A stretch of DNA of 64,000 nt. Source: an uncultured bacterium. Lineage in GTDB: Bacteria; Planctomycetota; Phycisphaerae; Phycisphaerales; SM1A02. Position 1 is the first letter of the stretch; each line of letters begins with the position of its first letter. The notes beneath the pieces were generated by a model. It worked only from the letters and a program-made list of their open reading frames with translations. It had not been told where the DNA came from and did no database searches. Position numbers and translations under genes: made by a program. Below are positions 108 to 31,018 of this stretch, piece after piece. Where the stretch lies: positions 1 through 64,000 of the forward strand of contig CAITDI010000043.1 of assembly GCA_903891095.1 (NCBI GenBank), written 5' to 3'.

Positions 108-1556
108 TCAGAGCTGCGCGCGCTCGAACATCCCCGCCGCGCGCAGCAGCGTCTCCTCATCGAACGCCTTCGCCTGCAGCTGGATGCCGATCGGCAGCTT
201 CTTGCCGCCCTCGTCCGCAAAGCCCGCGTTGATCGAAATCCCGGGGATCCCCGCGATGTTCGTGTTCACCGTGTACACGTCGCACATGTACATCGAGAGC
301 GGATCCTTCATGCCGCCGATCGGGAACGCGGGGATCGGCGACGTCGGCCCGAGGATCACGTCGCACTTCGCGAAGGCCCTGTCGAACTCCTCCTTGATGA
401 GGCGACGGACCTGCAGCGCGCGCTTGTAGTACGCGTCGTAGTACCCCGAGCTCAGCACATACGTGCCGAGCATGATGCGCCGCTGCACCTCGGGGCCGAA
501 GCCCTCCGCGCGCGACTTCGAGTACAGGTCCTCGAGATCCTCGCCGGGCGCGAGCTTCGCGCGGTGTCCGTAGCGGATGCCGTCGTAGCGCGCGAGGTTG
601 CTCGACGCCTCGGCGGGAGCGATCACGTAGTACGTCGAGATGCCGAGATCCGTGAGCGGGAGCTCGACATCGACGATCTCCGCGCCAAACGCGCGCGCCG
701 CGGCGATCGCGCGCTCGAACGCGGCGGCGACGGCCGGCGAGTTCGCGCTCGACTTGTATTCGCGCGGGATTCCCACGCGCAGCTTCGCGACCGGCTGCGC
801 GACCTTCGCCGCAAGCGGCTCGTGCGCGACATCGGCGGTGGTCGAATCGCTCGCATCGCGGCCGACGAGCGCGTCGTACACGAGCGTCGCATCGGCGACG
901 GTGCGCGCGAACGGACCGATCTGGTCGAGGCTCGAGCCGAACGCCACGAGTCCGTAGCGCGACACGCGGCCATACGTCGGCTTGAAGCCCACGCAGCCGC
1001 ACAGCGCCGCAGGCTGGCGGATCGAGCCGCCCGTGTCGGAACCCAGCGCCGCATCGCAGAAACCAGCGGCAACGGCAGCCGCGCTTCCGCCCGAGCTTCC
1101 GCCCGCGACGCGCGTGGTGTCGTGCGGATTCTTCGTCACGCCGAACGCGCTGTTCTCGGTGGACGAGCCCATCGCGAACTCGTCGAGATTCGTCTTTCCG
1201 ATGAACACCGCGCCCGCCGCGCGCAGCTTGTCGATCACCGTCGCGTCGAACGGCGAGCGGTAGTTCGCGAGCATCTTCGAGGAGCACGTGGTGCGGCCCT
1301 CGCGCATCACGATGTTGTCCTTGATCGCGATCACCGCGCCGGCAAGCGCGCCGGGATCGCGGCCGGCCTTGACCGCCGCGTCGACCGCATCGGCCTGCGC
1401 GCGCGCGGCATCGGCGTGGATCTCGTTGAACGCGTGGATTTCCGCGTCCTTCGCAGCGATCGCCGCGAGGTACGACTCGACGCGGCTGCGCGCGGTGACC
1501 TTGCCTGCGCGCACATCTCCGCAGATCTCGATGAGCGGCTTCTGCGTCGTGTTCAC
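108..1556 (-). CDS. gatA: Asp-tRNA(Asn)/Glu-tRNA(Gln) amidotransferase subunit A
   Basis: Catalytic amidase subunit of the GatCAB complex, which converts misacylated Glu-tRNA(Gln) or Asp-tRNA(Asn) to the amidated forms using glutamine. The 482-residue product has the full amidase signature: catalytic lysine K79 in AIKDNI, cis-serine S154 in AGGSSGGSAA, and nucleophile S178 in GSDTGGSIRQP, at the spacing known for GatA. The start is GTG and overlaps the gatC stop by four bases (GTGA), so the two genes are translationally coupled. gatB is not in the window. Length is normal for the family. Confidence 0.97.
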   Translation of the reverse strand: MNTTQKPLIEICGDVRAGKVTARSRVESYLAAIAAKDAEIHAFNEIHADAARAQADAVDAAVKAGRDPGALAGAVIAIKDNIVMREGRTTCSSKMLANYRSPFDATVIDKLRAAGAVFIGKTNLDEFAMGSSTENSAFGVTKNPHDTTRVAGGSSGGSAAAVAAGFCDAALGSDTGGSIRQPAALCGCVGFKPTYGRVSRYGLVAFGSSLDQIGPFARTVADATLVYDALVGRDASDSTTADVAHEPLAAKVAQPVAKLRVGIPREYKSSANSPAVAAAFERAIAAARAFGAEIVDVELPLTDLGISTYYVIAPAEASSNLARYDGIRYGHRAKLAPGEDLEDLYSKSRAEGFGPEVQRRIMLGTYVLSSGYYDAYYKRALQVRRLIKEEFDRAFAKCDVILGPTSPIPAFPIGGMKDPLSMYMCDVYTVNTNIAGIPGISINAGFADEGGKKLPIGIQLQAKAFDEETLLRAAGMFERAQL

Positions 1557-1864
1557 GCGCCACCTCCGTCGCCGAGCACCTTCGGGACCGCGAGGAAGCG
1601 GTCCACGACCGAGGGCGCGTTCTTGAGCAGTTCTTCCACGGGCATCGTTGCCTTGGGCTCGTCGGCGTCGAGGCGGTTCACGATGCGCAGCGGGTGCGCC
1701 ATCGGCTCCACGCCCTCGACGGGCACGGCCTGCAGCTTGGCGATGTGACCGAGAATCGACGAGAGCTGCGTGCGCATGCGCTCGAGGGTCGCGTCGTCGA
1801 CGGCAAGCCGCGAGAGCTTCGCGACGTGATGGACCTCTTTGGAAGTGAGTTCGCTGTGGCTCAT
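1553..1864 (-). CDS. gatC: Asp/Glu-tRNA amidotransferase subunit C
   Basis: Small stabilising subunit of GatCAB that wraps around GatA. The 103-residue product starts MSHSELTSKEVHHVAKLSRLA, contains the typical VEPMAHPL segment followed by N-R-L-D-A-D, and ends with RFLAVPKVLGDGGGA, all matching the GatC pattern. I chose the ATG at 1862-1864 because the reading frame further upstream (to 2029) encodes Arg-rich sequence without family resemblance. It is the first gene of a gatC-gatA operon and overlaps gatA by four bases. It diverges from the efflux adaptor gene across about 119 bases. Confidence 0.95.
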   Translation of the reverse strand: MSHSELTSKEVHHVAKLSRLAVDDATLERMRTQLSSILGHIAKLQAVPVEGVEPMAHPLRIVNRLDADEPKATMPVEELLKNAPSVVDRFLAVPKVLGDGGGA

Positions 1865-21742: not shown

Positions 21743-23755
21743 TCACCGAGACCGCGTGAACGCCCGCTCGGCCAGGCTGCCCGAGGGTTTACCCGTCAAT
21801 TGGGCGTGTTTCAGAAGATACTTCATGGTCACGATCATGACCGTGGCGTGCGACCAGGTGAGCGGGCTCACCGAGATCGGGGCGCCGGTATACGGGTCGA
21901 ACTGCTCGGCGAGCACGCCCGACGGGAACGCGCGGTCCGCCGTCCAGTGCAGGTAGGGCAGCGCCTGCTCGAGCTGCTCGACGGTCTCGGCGCGCTCGAT
22001 CAGCCACTGGCCGACCCAAAGCGTGCAGATAACCCACGGATTGCCCGGCACGTCGGCCAGGTTCGAGTGCTCGACGCGGTGGTAGTAGTCGTTCTCGTAG
22101 CGGGCGACGCCGCCGATGTGGGTCTTGACCCAGAGGCGGTCGCGGACCTGCTCCATGTGGGCGACGACCTTGGGATCGTTGGCGCTCATCGCACCGAACG
22201 CAAACAGCGCGAACGCGCTCGCGTCGATCGTCATGTCGAGGCGGTAGCTGCCGTCGGGGAGCGGCGTCGCCATCCGCGCGAAGCGGTTGCGGTCGGGCTC
22301 CCACATGTGGCGGATCATCGCGCCGCGCATGCGCTCGGCGCCTTCGTTGTATTCGGCGGCGCGGTCGTACGCGCCCATGTCCTGGGCAAAGCTCGCGGCG
22401 GCCTTGAGCGCGCCGATCGTCGACGCGACCGTGAAGAGATGCACGCCGCGGCGCTCCTCCCACAGGTCCCACGACGGCTGCGGCAGGCCGTTGTGGTCGC
22501 GGTAGCGCAGGATCCAGTTCGCAGGCTCGACGACGAGCGTGTTGTAGGTCGTCTTGATGAACTCGACGTCGCGGAAGATCTGGAAGTGCCGGCGCAGCGC
22601 CCAGATCACCAGCGATGTCTCGTCCTGCTGGATCGGGAGCACGCGCTGGCCGTCGAGCACCGACGGATGCCAGCTCGACGCGAGCGTGCCGCTCGGGTTG
22701 TACTTGTGGAGGAAGTAGCCTTCCTTCGAGATCACCTGCTCGCAGAAGCGGAAGAACTTCCGCGACAGTTCGCCGTGGCCCGAGAGGACGAGCGCATGCG
22801 AGACCAGCGCGCCGTCGCGCGGCCACATGTACGAGTACGTGTCGCCCGCGAAGTGCGTGATGTCGTAGTCGTTGGCGGCGATGATCGCGCCGTTGTTGTC
22901 GATCTGGGTGCGCGAGATCACCTGGCTGCGCACGAACATGTCGCGCAGGCGCTCGGGCAGCGGCGAGAGGTCGAGCGGTTCCTTCAGCGCCCAGAGCCGC
23001 CAGTACGCCTCCGTGCGGTCCATCATGCGCTGCGGGGTCTTGGTGCGGACCTTCTCGTTGAGGGCCATCACGGCTTCATGCGTGCGGCCGGCGGCGAGCC
23101 AGCAGTGCAGCGAGCCCGAGCCCCACGGCGAGAGCGCGACGGCAAAGCCGACGGTCGAGTCGACCGAGCCCTGTGCGATCGCGTGCCGCGAAAGGAGGCC
23201 GTCCTCGGCATCGCGCCATGTGCCTTCGGCGTCGCCGATGCGCTTGGCTCCGGTCGCCCAGTAGTCGACGCCAAAGCGTCCCGAAGAGCAGCCGTTGATC
23301 AGGAAGTACGCGCTGTCCTTGTAGTGCACGAGGCCGCTGGTCTGCGGGTCGTACATCACGGTGTCGCCGACGGGCGACTCGTTCACGCTGATGTCGTGGT
23401 GGAAGAAGATGCGCACGTCGCGCGGCTTGCCGAGCAGGTCGGTCACCACCACGCGGCGGAAGTAGACGGGGCTCCAGTAGTCGACCGCGTCGTTGCACAC
23501 GAGCTCGATGCCGAGGCGCTCGTGGCGGAGCCGCACATCGGTGACCATCGTGTCGGGCTTGTAGCGGAGGTCGCGCGTCCAGCCCGGCGAATCGATCCAC
23601 GCAAAGTGTCCGTCGGCCCACACGCCAAAGCGCTGCATGTGACCGCAGGTGTGGTTCGGCTGGCCGACATGGGGCCAGTAGAGGTCGCGCAGGCGGTATT
23701 GATCGTCGAAGGCGACGAGCATCTCGCCGTTTCCGACTGGGATATTGCGTGGCAT
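21743..23755 (-). CDS. GH15 family glucoamylase-like glycoside hydrolase
   Basis: A 670-residue glycoside hydrolase. Residues about 1-235 form a beta-sandwich domain (FDDQYRLRDLYWPHVGQPNH near the start), and about 265-650 the (alpha/alpha)6 barrel of GH15. Family motifs are visible: TYSYMWPRDGALVSHAL, PIQQDETSLVIWAL, the catalytic acid in WDLWEERRG (about E433) and the base in SGVLAEQFDP (about E617). No signal peptide is visible, so it probably acts in the cytoplasm on alpha-glucans, oligosaccharides or trehalose-type substrates. It is preceded on the same strand by the FliN-like gene's 3' flank, and no glycogen genes are nearby. Confidence 0.92.
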   Translation of the reverse strand: MPRNIPVGNGEMLVAFDDQYRLRDLYWPHVGQPNHTCGHMQRFGVWADGHFAWIDSPGWTRDLRYKPDTMVTDVRLRHERLGIELVCNDAVDYWSPVYFRRVVVTDLLGKPRDVRIFFHHDISVNESPVGDTVMYDPQTSGLVHYKDSAYFLINGCSSGRFGVDYWATGAKRIGDAEGTWRDAEDGLLSRHAIAQGSVDSTVGFAVALSPWGSGSLHCWLAAGRTHEAVMALNEKVRTKTPQRMMDRTEAYWRLWALKEPLDLSPLPERLRDMFVRSQVISRTQIDNNGAIIAANDYDITHFAGDTYSYMWPRDGALVSHALVLSGHGELSRKFFRFCEQVISKEGYFLHKYNPSGTLASSWHPSVLDGQRVLPIQQDETSLVIWALRRHFQIFRDVEFIKTTYNTLVVEPANWILRYRDHNGLPQPSWDLWEERRGVHLFTVASTIGALKAAASFAQDMGAYDRAAEYNEGAERMRGAMIRHMWEPDRNRFARMATPLPDGSYRLDMTIDASAFALFAFGAMSANDPKVVAHMEQVRDRLWVKTHIGGVARYENDYYHRVEHSNLADVPGNPWVICTLWVGQWLIERAETVEQLEQALPYLHWTADRAFPSGVLAEQFDPYTGAPISVSPLTWSHATVMIVTMKYLLKHAQLTGKPSGSLAERAFTRSR

Positions 23756-24334: not shown

Positions 24335-25588
<1,254 letters not shown>

Positions 25589-25630: not shown

Positions 25631-25885
25631 TCAGGAGCTCTTGAGGGTGCGCTGGATGTAGTCGATCGCATCCGCGACCGTCTTCAGCTTGGTCGCGGCC
25701 TCGTCGGTGATGGAGATTTCGAAGAGATCCTCGAACTCCATCATCAACTCGGCCTTGTCGAGGCTGTCGCAGATGGCGTCGAACTCGCTGGTCCGAGTGA
25801 CATCCGACTTGGCAACGCCAAGTTGGTCGGCGATGGCCTCGACGACCTTCGCCTCAATCTCGGATTCCGGCAGAGATGCAGACAT
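25631..25885 (-). CDS. Second acyl carrier protein
   Basis: An 84-residue acyl carrier protein paralogue (start MSASLPESEIEAK). The phosphopantetheine serine lies in ICDSLDKAELMMEFEDLF, where canonical ACP reads DSLDIVEL. Four-helix layout and size match ACP, but the sequence differs substantially from the neighbouring acpP. It lies between acpP and fabF with short spacers, so it belongs to the operon. It might carry a special acyl group, serve another synthase, or be a lineage-specific duplicate; the sequence does not decide. Confidence 0.88.
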   Translation of the reverse strand: MSASLPESEIEAKVVEAIADQLGVAKSDVTRTSEFDAICDSLDKAELMMEFEDLFEISITDEAATKLKTVADAIDYIQRTLKSS

Positions 25886-25908: not shown

Positions 25909-26163
25909 TCAACCCTGCGTGCGGTTCGCCTTGATGAAGTCGATCGCCTGGCCGACGGTGTGGATCTTCTCCGCCTGGTCGTCAGGGATCTTGGTTCCGA
26001 ACTGGGCCTCGAACTCCATGAGCAGCTCGACGATGTCGAGGCTGTCGGCGTTCAGGTCGTTCGTGAAGCTGGTCTCACGGGTGATCGACTCCGGCTCGGC
26101 ATCGGTGTGCTGAGCGACGATGTCGATGACCTTCTTTTCGATCTCGGCGTCGGTCACGGGCAT
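25909..26163 (-). CDS. acpP: Acyl carrier protein
   Basis: Central carrier of fatty-acid synthesis, modified with 4'-phosphopantetheine. The 84-residue product has the canonical helix II NADSLDIVELLMEFEAQFG with the attachment serine, and ends TVGQAIDFIKANRTQG. Two starts compete. The ATG at 26163 (MPVTDAEIEKK) fits the family N terminus, but its AGGAG is only two bases away. A TTG at 26190 has GAGGAG six bases upstream and would give a 93-residue form starting MSPEKIEGV. I chose the ATG on family length. It follows fabG across about 145 bases and precedes the second ACP. Confidence 0.95.
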   Translation of the reverse strand: MPVTDAEIEKKVIDIVAQHTDAEPESITRETSFTNDLNADSLDIVELLMEFEAQFGTKIPDDQAEKIHTVGQAIDFIKANRTQG

Positions 26164-26308
26164 GACTCCTTCAATCTTCTCTGGGCTCAAGGCGAACTCC
26201 TCACACGGTCGTCGCGGGTTGCGACGGGCGGGGGAATATAGCGAAATTCGAACAGCGATGGGCGGGTCGGATCGGATGTGCGTGTCGGCACATCCTGCGC
26301 GGCGAACA

Positions 26309-27043
26309 TCAGGCCGCCATGCCGCCGTCCACGACGATGACTTGTGCGGTCAGGAAGCCCGCTTCGTCGCTGCTCACGTAGGCGACGGCGGCGGCGATCT
26401 CCTCGGGCTTGCCAAAGCGGCGGACCGGGATGTTGGGCAGCACGGCGGTCTTGATCGTGTCGCCGAGCGCGTCGGTCATGTCGGTCTCGATGAAGCCAGG
26501 GGCGATCACGTTGGCGGTGATGCCCTTCGCGCCCATCTCCTTGGCGATGGTCTTGCTGAAGCCCACGATCGCGGCCTTGGCGGCGGCGTAGTTCGCCTGC
26601 CCCGCGTTGCCCGACAGGCCCGACACGCTGCCGAGGTTGACGATGCGACCGAACTTGCCGCGCATCATCGGGCGGATCGCCGCGCGGCACGCGACGAAGA
26701 TCGAGCGCAGGTTGACGTTGAGGACCTCGTCCCACTGCTCGTCGGTCATGCGGAGAAGCAGCGTATCGCGCGTGATTCCCGCATTGTTGACGAGGATGTC
26801 GAGGCGGCCGTGGGCCTCGGCGACGCCTTCGACGAGCGCCTGCACGGCGGCTCCGTCGGCGATGTCGCAGGGGCGGACTTCGCAGGACCCGCCCGCAGCC
26901 TTGATCGCCGCGTCGACGGCCGCGAGGCCCTCGGCGGTGCGCGCCACGAGGACGACATGACGGCCGTCCTTGGCGAGGCGTTCTGCGATGGCCCGGCCGA
27001 TGCCGCGGCTAGCTCCGGTGACGATGGCGACGCGCTTGTCGAT
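26309..27043 (-). CDS. fabG: 3-oxoacyl-ACP reductase, apparent ATC start
   Basis: NADPH-dependent reductase of the fatty-acid cycle, short-chain dehydrogenase family. The Rossmann motif VAIVTGASRGIGRAIAERL comes at the very start, followed by DILVNNAGITRD, the catalytic serine in LGSVSGLSG, and YAAAK. It ends QVIVVDGGMAA. No ATG, GTG or TTG exists in frame between the upstream TGA and the Rossmann motif. An ATC at 27041-27043 sits eight bases after GGGAGG and gives 244 residues, the usual FabG length. The first GTG in frame (26945-26947) would delete the NADPH-binding motif. Initiation at ATC is therefore inferred. Confidence 0.88.
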   Translation of the reverse strand: MDKRVAIVTGASRGIGRAIAERLAKDGRHVVLVARTAEGLAAVDAAIKAAGGSCEVRPCDIADGAAVQALVEGVAEAHGRLDILVNNAGITRDTLLLRMTDEQWDEVLNVNLRSIFVACRAAIRPMMRGKFGRIVNLGSVSGLSGNAGQANYAAAKAAIVGFSKTIAKEMGAKGITANVIAPGFIETDMTDALGDTIKTAVLPNIPVRRFGKPEEIAAAVAYVSSDEAGFLTAQVIVVDGGMAA

Positions 27044-27168
27044 GACTGAAACCTCCCTCGCCGCGGAGGCGGCGTAGGGCGGGGAGGATAGTGGAAATCA
27101 CGAAACGCGCTGCACGCGCGCCACGCAGCGGAAAGAGGCGTCGCAACGCGCGTCAGGCACCAATGACA

Positions 27169-27190
27169 ACCGCCCGCAGGCGCGGGCGGT
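27169..27190. terminator. GC-rich hairpin after the lipoprotein gene
   Basis: A 9-bp perfect stem (ACCGCCCGC, loop AGGC, GCGGGCGGT) lies 43 bases downstream of the lipoprotein stop on the minus strand, before fabG. No T-run follows on that strand, so it may be an attenuator or mRNA stabiliser rather than a full terminator. Confidence 0.4.
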
Positions 27191-27233
27191 CGTCGATTCT
27201 TTCGAGCACCAAAGCGAGCAGATGCGAGCGCTC

Positions 27234-28022
27234 TTACTTCGTTCCGAAGCCAGGGCCCTTCGGCGCCTTGATCGGCGCGCCGGGCATGCGCTTGCCAGGC
27301 AGACCACCGGGCACGCCCGCGGGCACGTCGCCCTCGGACGCGGTCGGCTGGCCGCCTTCGTCTTCCTTGGTGAAGTCCTGCTTGGGCATCTCAGGCGACT
27401 CGTCCGGCTCGTCGGCCTTGGCGAGTTCGAGCTTGAGGACTTCGAACCACGCGGCGATCTGGTTGTCGCCGCTGAGCTTGTTGAGGATGCCCGGCGGGGT
27501 CGCGATCGCGTCGAACTCGGCCTTGCCGCCGGTGGTGTAGCTCCACAGCTGGGGCTCGAAGCCCTCGCCGACGTGGAACACCGCGAGCGTGCAGTTGCTG
27601 CTGTCCTGCTTGCCGCAGCGGACGTCGATGCGCGTGATCGCGGCGGTCGACTTGGCAAAGCTGCCTGCTTCGATCATGCCGTCGAGCTGGAACTGGTCCG
27701 GGGCCGAGAGCATGGGCTTGAGCGCATCGGCGTTGCCGCGCGCGAACGCGTCGAAGAACTTGAGCACGGCGATGCGCGCCTCATCGGTGTCCGGCGCGCG
27801 CTCCTCGGGGAGCGTGACACGCTGGTCGATGTCGTACTTCGCCATCAGGTCCTTGATCGAGGTCAGCTTGGGCGCCTCGGGAGCGACGGCCTTCGGCGGC
27901 GGCGGCGGGGGAGCCTGCACGACGGCCGGCGGTTCTTCACCGCAGCCGACCAGCAGGGTGCTCATGAGCGAGCCCGCGGCGACCGCGAGCGAGAGAGCGA
28001 GAGTGTTCTTACGTTGCGTCAT
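27234..28022 (-). CDS. Putative lipoprotein inside the fab cluster
   Basis: A 262-residue protein with a lipoprotein signal (SLMSTLLVGCGEEPP, lipobox LVGC) followed by a proline-rich linker and a globular part of about 150 residues (IAVLKFFDAFARGNADALKP near its start), then a glycine/proline-rich tail. I recognise no named family; the SnoaL/NTF2-like look of the FFDAFARGNAD segment is weak. Its start overlaps the end of fabD by 14 bases, which implies coupling to the fatty-acid genes. Its place in the fab operon is unusual and may reflect an envelope role. Confidence 0.7.
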   Translation of the reverse strand: MTQRKNTLALSLAVAAGSLMSTLLVGCGEEPPAVVQAPPPPPPKAVAPEAPKLTSIKDLMAKYDIDQRVTLPEERAPDTDEARIAVLKFFDAFARGNADALKPMLSAPDQFQLDGMIEAGSFAKSTAAITRIDVRCGKQDSSNCTLAVFHVGEGFEPQLWSYTTGGKAEFDAIATPPGILNKLSGDNQIAAWFEVLKLELAKADEPDESPEMPKQDFTKEDEGGQPTASEGDVPAGVPGGLPGKRMPGAPIKAPKGPGFGTK

Positions 28023-28980
28023 GGGGGATGACCTCGCAAGTCTTGTCGATCCGGCGCATGAGGCCCTTCAGCACGTTGCCGGGGGCGAGCTCATGGAAAG
28101 CCGTCGTCGTGCGCGTGCCCGAGGTGCCGAGCACTTCGAGCAGGTTCGCGCAAGATTGGGCCCATCGTACAGGGGATACGAGCTGATCCACCAGCAGGCT
28201 GCGGAGAAGTTCAGGATTTGCGGGGTCGTGCGGACGGGCGGTCACGTTGGACCAGACCTCGCACTTGAGCGCCGCAATCTGGACCTTGGCCAGCGCCTCG
28301 CCCAGCTTCTCGGCGGCGGGGGCCATGAGCGGGCTGTGGAACGCGCCCGCGACCTGGAGCTTGGTGGCGCGGACGCCGACATCGCCCGACACCGCGACCG
28401 CGCGGTCGCAGGCCTCGATCGAGCCCGAAAGCACGATCTGGCCGGGGGCGTTGAAGTTCGCCGGCACCAGGCACTCGCCCGCCGCGGCTCCCGCGAGGGC
28501 GCGCGCGCAGACGTCGTTGGCCTGCGCCTCGTCGCCGCCGATCAGGGCGACCATGCCGCCCTTCGACGCTTCGGCGGCCTGCTGCATGAGCTGGCCGCGG
28601 CGCATGACGAGCCGCAGTCCGTCCTCGAAGCTGAACGCGCCCGCGAGGTGGAGCGCGGTGTACTCGCCGAGCGAAAGGCCCGCGACGGCGCGCACGCTGA
28701 GCGCTCGCAGTTCCTCGGGCAGCGCGTGGTGGCACGCGATGGCCGCGGCAAACAGCGCGGGCTGCGAGATGTCGGTGCGGCTGAGGACATCGATCGGGCC
28801 GTTGAACGCGATGTCGGTCAGCGAACGGCCGCCGACGGACGCCGACGCTGCGCTGCCCGCGAAGATGCGGTCGGCTTCATCGAGAAGCGCCTTTGCCTTG
28901 GGGCTTGCGTCGCACCAGGCCTTGGCCATGCCGACAGCCTGTGCACCTTGTCCGGGGCAGAGAAAGACGATGTGAGTCAT
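28009..28980 (-). CDS. fabD: Malonyl-CoA:ACP transacylase
   Basis: Transfers malonyl from CoA to ACP. The 323-residue product has MTHIVFLCPGQGAQAVGMA at the N terminus, nucleophile S103 in GLSLGEYTAL, the conserved QPALFAAA segment, and the catalytic histidine in GAFHSPLMAPA. The start at 28980 was chosen because MTHIVFLCPGQG is the usual N terminus. It follows fabH after two bases and overlaps the lipoprotein gene. Confidence 0.96.
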   Translation of the reverse strand: MTHIVFLCPGQGAQAVGMAKAWCDASPKAKALLDEADRIFAGSAASASVGGRSLTDIAFNGPIDVLSRTDISQPALFAAAIACHHALPEELRALSVRAVAGLSLGEYTALHLAGAFSFEDGLRLVMRRGQLMQQAAEASKGGMVALIGGDEAQANDVCARALAGAAAGECLVPANFNAPGQIVLSGSIEACDRAVAVSGDVGVRATKLQVAGAFHSPLMAPAAEKLGEALAKVQIAALKCEVWSNVTARPHDPANPELLRSLLVDQLVSPVRWAQSCANLLEVLGTSGTRTTTAFHELAPGNVLKGLMRRIDKTCEVIPHDAT

Positions 28981-28982
28981 GT

Positions 28983-29993
28983 TCAGGTGTTCCAGACGGA
29001 CGAAGCCCACGTGAGGCCGCCACCGAAGGCGACCATCATGAAGGGCTTGCCCTTGGTGATCTTGCCGGCGCGCCACAGCTCGTCGAGGCAGAGCGGGACG
29101 CTGCCCGCGCTCGAATTGCCGTAGCGGTCGATGTTCACGTAGATCTTGGACGAATCGATGCCGAGCTTCTCGCGCGCCGCATCGATGATGCGGATGTTCG
29201 ACTGGTGGCAGATCACCTGGCTCACGTCGTCGGGAGTGAGGCTCGTCTTCTTGAAGGCGTCTTCCATCACTTCCTTGAACTTCGTCACGGCGAAGCGGAA
29301 GACTTCCTTGCCGTTCATGCGCAGCGAGCCGAGGCGGATCGGGTTGTCCGCATCCTCCGCAGGCACGTCGCTTTCACGGCGCGGGATGTAGAGCGCGTGC
29401 CAGCCCGAGCCGTCGGCGCCCATGTGCTGGTAGATGCAGCCCTTGGTCGGATCGGGATCGGCCTGGATGATCGCGCAGCCAGCGGCGTCGCCGAACAGGA
29501 TCGACACCGAGCGGTCGGTGTAGTCGAGGATCGAGCTCATCGCCTCGGCGCCGAGCACGGCGATCGTGCGCGCGCGGCCGGCGCGGATCATCGCTTCGGC
29601 GGTGTTGAGCGCGTAGACGAAGCCGCTGCACGCTGCGCCGAGATCGAACGCGGCGGCGTTCTTGGCGCCGACTGCGCCCGCGATGCGGCACGCGACCGAC
29701 GGGCAGGTCATCTCCATCGTGACCGTGGCGACGATCACGAAGTCGAGTTCCTCGGCCTTGATGCCGGCGCCTTCGATCGCACGCTCGAGCGCGCGCTGGG
29801 CGAGCGTCGAGCAGCCTTCGGTGCGGAGGTCGAGCACGCGGCGCTCGCGGATGCCGGTCCGCTGCGTGATCCACTCGTCGCTCGTGTCCATCATCCGCGC
29901 GAAATCGTCGTTGGTGAGGCGTCGATCGGGCACCGCGGAGCCGGTCCCGAGGATCCGAACGCCGCACGCGCCGCTGGGAAGCTGGCCCATCAT
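28983..29993 (-). CDS. fabH: Beta-ketoacyl-ACP synthase III
   Basis: Initiating condensing enzyme that joins an acyl-CoA with malonyl-ACP. The 336-residue product has nucleophile C122 in GAACSGFVYALN, the histidine motif CHQSNIRIIDA, and the asparagine motif YGNSSAGSVPLCLDE, ending in AFGGGLTWASSVW. It overlaps plsX by four bases and precedes fabD by two, so it is tightly coupled in the operon. Confidence 0.97.
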   Translation of the reverse strand: MMGQLPSGACGVRILGTGSAVPDRRLTNDDFARMMDTSDEWITQRTGIRERRVLDLRTEGCSTLAQRALERAIEGAGIKAEELDFVIVATVTMEMTCPSVACRIAGAVGAKNAAAFDLGAACSGFVYALNTAEAMIRAGRARTIAVLGAEAMSSILDYTDRSVSILFGDAAGCAIIQADPDPTKGCIYQHMGADGSGWHALYIPRRESDVPAEDADNPIRLGSLRMNGKEVFRFAVTKFKEVMEDAFKKTSLTPDDVSQVICHQSNIRIIDAAREKLGIDSSKIYVNIDRYGNSSAGSVPLCLDELWRAGKITKGKPFMMVAFGGGLTWASSVWNT

Positions 29994-31018
29994 GCTGCGG
30001 GCTCTTGGATCGTCTCGAGACGCGTGTTGATGATGTTGTTGATGCCGCTGCTCACGAAGAGCCGCGAGCGGAGGATCGCGTTCATCATCGTGCGCGACAC
30101 GCTGGATCCGTGGGAAATCAAGCAGGTTCCGTTCACGCCGAGCAGCGGGGCGCCGCCGTACTCGTGGTAGTCGTGCTTGGCGTAGATCGCCTTGACGACC
30201 GGCTCGAGCCGCACGGCGAGCTCGGGATCGGTCTCGAGCACCTGCTGCGCGATCGCCTGGAAGAGGCCCTTCGAAAGGCCTTCGGCGAGCTTGATCATGA
30301 CGTTGCCGACGACGCCGTCGGTGATGACGACGTCTGCGTCGCCGTCAAACACGCCGCGTCCTTCGACGTAGCCGATGAAGTTGAGGTCTTCGGCGCCGCG
30401 GAGAAGATCGCGCGCGACCTTCATCTCGCTGGTGCCCTTCTGCTCTTCGCCGCCGACGTTCATCAGCGCGACGCGCGGGTTCTTGATGCCGAGGATGGCG
30501 CGCGCGTACGCGTCGCCCATCACGCCGTACTGCGCGAGGTGGACGGGCTTCGGCTCGATGTTCGCGCCGACGTCGATGAGGACGATCGGACCCGCGAAGG
30601 TCGGGATCGTGACCGCGATGCCGGGACGGATCACGTTCGGCAGGCGGCGCATGTACATCTGGCTCGCGGTGACGCAGGCGCCCGTGTTTCCAGCGGAAAT
30701 CCAGGCGTCGCAGCGATTGGGATGCTTGGAGCTCGAGTATTCCGCGGCACGGGAGATCGAGCTGTCGCGCTTGGAGCGGACGGCCTCGACGGGCGCGTCG
30801 TCCATCTCGATGACTTCGCTGCAGTGCACGACCTCGATCTTGGCGCCGGGGCCAGTCTTCGAGATTCCGCGCTCCTTGATGGCTTCCTCGATGATCTCGC
30901 CCTTGCCGAAGAGCACGAGCGTGTCCTCGGCGGGGAGCTTCGAGAGTGCCGCGAACGAGCCCTTCAGGATCTCGTCGGGCGCGTTGTCGCCACCCATGAT
31001 GTCGACACCAATGCGCAT
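29990..31018 (-). CDS. plsX: Phosphate acyltransferase
   Basis: Converts acyl-ACP to acyl-phosphate for phosphatidic acid synthesis by PlsY. The 342-residue product starts MRIGVDIMGGDNAPDEILKG and contains DAWISAGNTGACV, the glycine-rich ADVVITDGVVGNVMIKLAEG and the C-terminal HGSSVSRTMMNAI, all typical of PlsX. It heads the plsX-fabH-fabD segment and overlaps fabH by four bases. rpmF lies upstream as in many bacteria, but a hairpin separates them. Confidence 0.96.
   Translation of the reverse strand: MRIGVDIMGGDNAPDEILKGSFAALSKLPAEDTLVLFGKGEIIEEAIKERGISKTGPGAKIEVVHCSEVIEMDDAPVEAVRSKRDSSISRAAEYSSSKHPNRCDAWISAGNTGACVTASQMYMRRLPNVIRPGIAVTIPTFAGPIVLIDVGANIEPKPVHLAQYGVMGDAYARAILGIKNPRVALMNVGGEEQKGTSEMKVARDLLRGAEDLNFIGYVEGRGVFDGDADVVITDGVVGNVMIKLAEGLSKGLFQAIAQQVLETDPELAVRLEPVVKAIYAKHDYHEYGGAPLLGVNGTCLISHGSSVSRTMMNAILRSRLFVSSGINNIINTRLETIQEPAA

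Follow-up and report, generated by a model that had tools for sequence, protein, structure and literature searches.

The fabG locus and its start site

The window (the whole 64,000-nucleotide stretch of planctomycete DNA that was analysed) carries on its minus strand a run of genes in the order plsX, fabH, a fabD-like gene, a conserved protein, fabG, two acyl carrier proteins and fabF; their coordinates, and those of the features surrounding the fabG start, are collected in Table 1. Shortly downstream of fabF lies a protein with a FliN C-terminal domain (PF01052; 23842-24108, minus strand), and a glycosyl hydrolase family 15-like protein (21743-23755, minus strand) is 91-92% identical in four relatives from the same genus.

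Table 1. Genes and sequence features at and around fabG in the window
Feature	Position	Strand	Remarks
plsX	29990..31018	minus	TIGR00182, 289 bits, above cut-off
fabH	28983..29993	minus	TIGR00747, 349 bits, above cut-off
fabD-like gene	28009..28980	minus	best match TIGR00128, 227.6 bits, below curated cut-off of 260.9
Conserved protein between fabD-like gene and fabG	27237-28022	minus	no NCBIfam/Pfam match; N-terminus lipoprotein-signal-like by eye
In-frame TGA upstream of fabG start	27098..27100	minus	from the reading frame
Possible -10 box, TATCCT	27085..27090	minus	by eye in genus alignment; TAGAAT/TAGACT in relatives
Hairpin CGCCGC / GCGGCG, loop CTCC	27059..27074	minus	just upstream of Shine-Dalgarno sequence; genus covariation
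Shine-Dalgarno sequence GGGAGG	27052..27057	minus	8 nt before ATC; pairing energy with anti-Shine-Dalgarno sequence -11.6 kcal/mol
ATC initiation codon (AUC in mRNA)	27041..27043	minus	AUH conserved at this site in relatives
fabG, 3-oxoacyl-ACP reductase	26309..27043	minus	244 codons plus stop, ATC start; TIGR01830, PF13561/PF00106
First canonical in-frame codon, GTG	26945..26947	minus	inside Rossmann domain; implausible as a start
Acyl carrier protein gene downstream of fabG	25912..26163 (stop excluded)	minus	NF002151 and TIGR00517 above cut-off
Second acyl carrier protein-like gene	25634..25885 (stop excluded)	minus	NF002148 above, TIGR00517 below cut-off
fabF	24335..25588	minus	TIGR03150, 595 bits, above cut-off

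FabG proteins are marked by the motifs TGxxxGIG and YxxxK. The translation of this gene contains TGASRGIG and YAAAK, scores 315.6 bits against TIGR01830 (above the curated cut-off of 297.75), and has other fab genes nearby. Its frame runs from the upstream TGA (27100-27098) through GTC ATC GAC AAG CGC GTC GCC ATC GTC into TGASRGIG, and closes with a stop codon at 26309-26311. An earlier note on this DNA had stated that the frame contains no ATG, GTG or TTG between that TGA and the Rossmann motif, that an ATC eight bases after GGGAGG opens a 244-residue protein, and that the next canonical start, GTG at 26947, would remove TGASRGIG. All three statements hold in the minus-strand frame (ATC at 27043-27041, GGGAGG at 27057-27052); a start at the GTG would delete the first 32 residues of FabG, and the codon aligned to it is GTC in three of four relatives from the genus.

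We also looked for the two circumstances that the earlier note had named as fatal to its reading, namely a base error hiding an ATG or GTG, and an intact second fabG elsewhere. Neither was found. The comparison of close relatives that it had proposed gives ATC in 14 of 16 genus genomes and ATA in one, at the same place, and for this reason the window's ATC is not a base error. In the window's genome (a draft of 131 contigs) there is no close second fabG; seven other matches are 28-35% identical.

Conservation of the start codon across the genus and the family

We refer to AUC, AUU and AUA collectively as AUH. Within the genus, AUH occupies the fabG start in 15 of the 16 genomes, the window's included; in one genome (G004) an ATG lies six codons farther upstream. 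The DNA upstream of fabG has accumulated many insertions and deletions in the genus alignment, yet the Shine-Dalgarno sequence and the start codon remain in place, and the reading frame is intact throughout, at 84-93% identity.

A search of 181 genomes from the window's family yielded 163 with a fabG match at 1e-60, and 151 loci were read; 12 genomes remained unread (G084, G086, G091, G100, G153, G157, G158, G159, G160, G163, G185 and G197). The start is ATC in 93 loci, ATT in seven, ATA in one, ATG in 44, TTG in three, GTG in one, and ACG or ACA in two. Thus AUH initiates 101 of 151 loci, counted as one genome assembly per species, and is present in 34 of 43 genera (one of these, g22, through a single ambiguous locus); against this, 50 of the 151 loci are non-AUH and nine of the 43 genera have none. 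Wherever several codons were possible, the start was assigned by eye from the position of the Shine-Dalgarno sequence; the ambiguous loci were counted as AUH (G036, G113), ATG (G204, G016) or odd (G069, G080). Five loci joined the count after the first 146 (G093 and G095, ATT; G096, TTG; G162 and G192, ATG); the tree, stop, Shine-Dalgarno and exclusion counts given below are based on those 146 together with 17 loci from other families. In four other families of the order, 22 of 24 genomes were read (G038 and G060, which lack a good fabG match, were left out), and the start is ATG in 20 and GTG in two. Among 80 named loci from varied bacteria, partly from the same contigs as the family search, seven have no canonical codon at -5 to -20, and all seven have AUH at -8, resembling the family's loci in this respect.

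Two side observations emerged from these surveys. The fabG of genus g41 apparently starts at ACG (L177, G069) or ACA (L161, G080), codons that do not fit the AUH class, and a sister genome with a near-identical leader (G066) has ATG. Separately, a contig of the window's planctomycete genus (L056, JASGCF010000179.1) is titled Limnohabitans sp., perhaps through mislabelling or a mixed bin.

How far can a canonical start be excluded at the AUH loci? In 53 of the 99 AUH loci tested, the stretch from the in-frame stop to AUH is free of canonical codons; the argument from exclusion is only partial, because the other 46 have some canonical codon upstream or a stop that is out of reach. In five genomes (G112, G121, G119, G120 and G030) the gap from stop to AUH is just 1-4 codons, and therefore almost no alternative start is possible there. 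As a counterweight, a canonical codon follows 7-8 codons after the AUH in 25 of the 99 loci. The AUH codon is not confined to one position: as well as -8, it is found at -11 (G028), -12 (G125), -15 (G022, G181, G085, G101, G102) and -16 (G019), and at these moved starts it is AUH in several genomes and ATG in others.

A tree built from the fabG coding sequence with the start region left out (163 rows) requires 16 or more switches between AUH and canonical starts, at least nine of which are forced by starred branches, in a count that is blind to whether AUH was gained or lost; when the AUH and canonical labels were shuffled on the same tree, a mean of 49 changes was needed. The codon has therefore been able to change, and AUH is nonetheless the prevailing state. 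A published survey (PMC5622118) records that, of 61,358 ancestral AUG starts, 1 went to AUU and 476 to GUG or UUG. The corresponding fabG figures in the family are 101 AUH against four GTG or TTG, a comparison that sets standing counts beside switch counts and is indicative only. Drift explains the prevalence of AUH at fabG poorly, and selection for the AUH class would be the better account.

The leader, infC and the specificity of the AUH start

The Shine-Dalgarno pairing is stronger at AUH loci than elsewhere, with a median of -7.3 kcal/mol as compared with -5.9 at canonical loci of the family, -4.9 in other families and -3.3 at internal Ile codons. It is at or below -4 kcal/mol in 91 of 99 AUH loci and weaker in eight; among the 97 AUH loci with a motif match, the spacing to AUH is 5-8 nt in 89. 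The motif matches are also longer at AUH than at canonical loci of the family (p = 0.003, uncorrected for relatedness).

Just upstream, the leader of the window's genus has a predicted 6-bp hairpin that covaries. Covariation was assessed in this one genus (16 sequences), against shuffles that make no correction for relatedness. Four of the six pairs have changed on both sides, a figure matched in 1 of 500 shuffles; neither the share of paired cells (92.7%) nor the covariation score (0.303) was equalled in any of the 500. The number of pair types, by contrast, is ordinary, being reached in 131 of the 500. When the partner is slid along, pairing falls to about 75% or below. The leader of the window's fabG has a predicted fold of -22.8 kcal/mol (z -2.17) that goes beyond the hairpin and takes some of the Shine-Dalgarno sequence into the pairing; single leader folds are otherwise weak, with z from -0.35 to -1.93 in five genus relatives and +1.65 in G112, from another genus. 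An Rfam search of the window returned no known RNA element, and a consensus scan of 26250-27300 detected no sigma-70 promoter or terminator. The putative -10 box listed in Table 1 would possibly mean a short 5' leader for fabG. In other genera of the family, four loci (L035, L169, L180, L181) have, by eye, a GC-rich inverted repeat and then a T-run, some 20-45 nt ahead of the start codon of fabG; these may act as an attenuator, or else terminate the gene upstream.

The gene for IF3, infC, starts at AUU, AUC or AUA, is autoregulated by IF3, and retains this arrangement across a wide clade. We read infC starts by eye from the frame of the match in 27 of 30 fetched loci (L268, L271 and L279 were left out), one of which (L252) is too short. 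All 26 others have AUH, 15 of them in the window's family and 11 in five other families; two are ambiguous (G024 and G018), with ATG or TTG two codons before the AUH. The infC of the window's own genome (L273, G000:C57, near 29969-30226) reads TGA CCC ATC. Since infC has AUH across the lineage, AUH initiation appears to be functional there, and the codon class is common to infC and fabG. At one locus (L261, G017:C1:93377-93634) there is an in-frame TAG inside the match to the IF3 C-domain.

Other genes were examined likewise for coding sequence that is conserved upstream of their first canonical codon. In the window, 52 frames were compared and seven flagged; across five genus genomes, i.e., the window and parts of four relatives (a small fraction of the genome), 247 conserved gene instances were compared and 15 flagged. 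Three of these 15 are fabG (G000, G001 and G013), with 70-100% identity over the full 30 residues before the canonical codon; fabG went unflagged in G004, which has ATG, and in G015, which has GTG just before the motif. In the other 12 instances, identity ahead of the first canonical codon stays at or below 58% across stretches of at least 10 residues, and a gene flagged three times (window 116-1634 and relatives) has an aligned ATG or GTG at its first canonical codon in all genomes compared. A lineage-wide relaxation of start choice was considered and rejected, since fabG alone stood out among these 247 instances. Bearing in mind that this control covers a small part of the genome, there may be further AUH-start genes in these genomes.

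A proposed IF3-sensitive start, and known systems

From this comparison of sequences, fabG in the window's planctomycete family very probably begins at AUC (or AUU or AUA), a rare start, instead of AUG, and in the window itself translation, too, very probably starts at the AUC. The earlier note's simplest reading, a non-standard initiator with possibly low-rate translation, is thereby supported beyond its first statement, since the start appears to be family-wide and of a codon class common to infC. The AUH conservation across dozens of genera suggests that the translation machinery deliberately throttles FabG.

We hypothesize, with a probability of about 0.72, that fabG has a selected, inefficient AUH initiator, one that is helped by a strong Shine-Dalgarno sequence and held down by IF3. 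The initiator fMet-tRNA (anticodon CAU) would pair with the first two bases of AUC and mispair at the third, while the strong, well-spaced Shine-Dalgarno sequence would hold the 30S subunit at the codon. IF3 is described as tolerating only Watson-Crick pairs at codon positions 1 and 2 and preferring strong pairs at position 3 (PMC10158994); a second report describes IF3 repression of infC and of the GTC start of sigR (PMC5472188). If IF3 likewise disfavours AUH at fabG, FabG synthesis would stay low, falling as free IF3 rises and rising as it falls, like that of infC. The 5' hairpin beside the Shine-Dalgarno sequence in the window's genus may be a second brake. Within the family, selection would retain AUH at fabG. 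As to magnitude, in poor medium the AUU and AUA starts of Staphylococcus aureus yield about 10% of what AUG does, and ccpN up to 30% in rich medium (PMC13009471). By analogy, fabG should be weakly translated and IF3-sensitive, the sensitivity to IF3 being, in our estimation, probable. That selection acts on the regulation of lipid synthesis, rather than merely on a low output of FabG, is a more tentative idea, for which we put the chances a little below even; more doubtful again is the notion that fabG and infC make up a small IF3-sensing set in the family.

The most serious alternative is that AUC merely fixes a constant low output of FabG, that IF3 varies too little to matter, and that any weak initiator would suffice. 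It draws on S. aureus, where the output of the cvfC1 AUU start is described as independent of medium and that of citZ AUA as only modestly dependent (PMC13009471). We nevertheless judge it unlikely: if any weak start were adequate, GTG and TTG should be frequent, and they are the rare exceptions in the family census, even though AUG generally switches to GUG or UUG far more readily than to AUU (the PMC5622118 figures above). GUG and UUG may, for their part, be too efficient to serve.

Could the true start instead lie upstream, at another non-canonical codon or in the frame of an upstream ORF, so that the ATC is an internal Ile codon? Most internal Ile codons of fabG in the genus are indeed ATC as well (219 of 256), but the very short stop-to-AUH gaps in five genomes, the indels in the upstream DNA and the regular spacing from the Shine-Dalgarno sequence all oppose this idea, and we consider it very improbable. 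Equally improbable is a dedicated initiator tRNA, with anticodon GAU for instance, by which the lineage would read AUC as a normal start. A search of the draft genome, allowing any base at position 34 and no arm mismatch, found one initiator-type gene, tRNA-Met(CAT), and no support for such a tRNA; lineage-wide reading of AUC should, besides, affect other genes than the one that stood out. An error of sequencing or assembly, or decay of fabG, might be imagined for a genome so fragmented, but is scarcely credible given a start that recurs in 101 assemblies and a frame that is intact across the genus.

Were fabG and infC such an IF3-sensing set, the synthesis of FabG, and through it that of fatty acids and membranes, would be coupled by AUH starts to the amount of free IF3 relative to 30S subunits, and lipid synthesis would track the state of translation. 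The AUH codon sits on the gene of a core enzyme of fatty-acid synthesis in most genera read in the family, and sister genera with ATG offer natural controls. The system could help to gauge the number of genes under IF3 control, and it may connect translation initiation with the making of membranes. Gene callers restricted to ATG, GTG and TTG would, we infer, misplace this start. Among the literature matches listed (open-licence papers), we found no report of fabG with a non-canonical start, none on non-AUG starts or proteogenomics in Planctomycetes, and none that joins Phycisphaerales to start codons.

Several known systems bear comparison. The closest is infC, which has the same codon class and has AUH in the window's lineage too; infC is autoregulatory, whereas fabG is an unrelated metabolic gene with AUH seen in one family only. 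The pcnB gene of Escherichia coli also has an AUU start, which reportedly limits its expression, although the gene is a different one. Starts other than AUG, GUG and UUG are rarely characterised experimentally, by the account in PMC5472188. The case treated there, Streptomyces sigR, resembles fabG in being a gene other than infC with a conserved, non-canonical, IF3-repressed start and an extensive ribosome-binding site; it differs in its GTC codon, in encoding a sigma factor, in its restriction to one genus, and in having been shown experimentally where fabG is read from sequence (PMC5472188). AUH starts like that of fabG are described for S. aureus ccpN (AUA), cvfC1 (AUU) and citZ (AUA), and extended Shine-Dalgarno sequences for infC, cvfC1 and ccpN (PMC13009471). 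The ccpN start is conserved as far as Bacillus subtilis and that of cvfC1 among staphylococci; citZ, like fabG, encodes a metabolic enzyme, but its AUA is kept only in the strains of one lineage, and all three are other genes in another phylum (PMC13009471). Conserved non-canonical starts are known for a handful of genes, to which fabG is, as judged by its sequence conservation, a new addition, apparently spread through much of one family.
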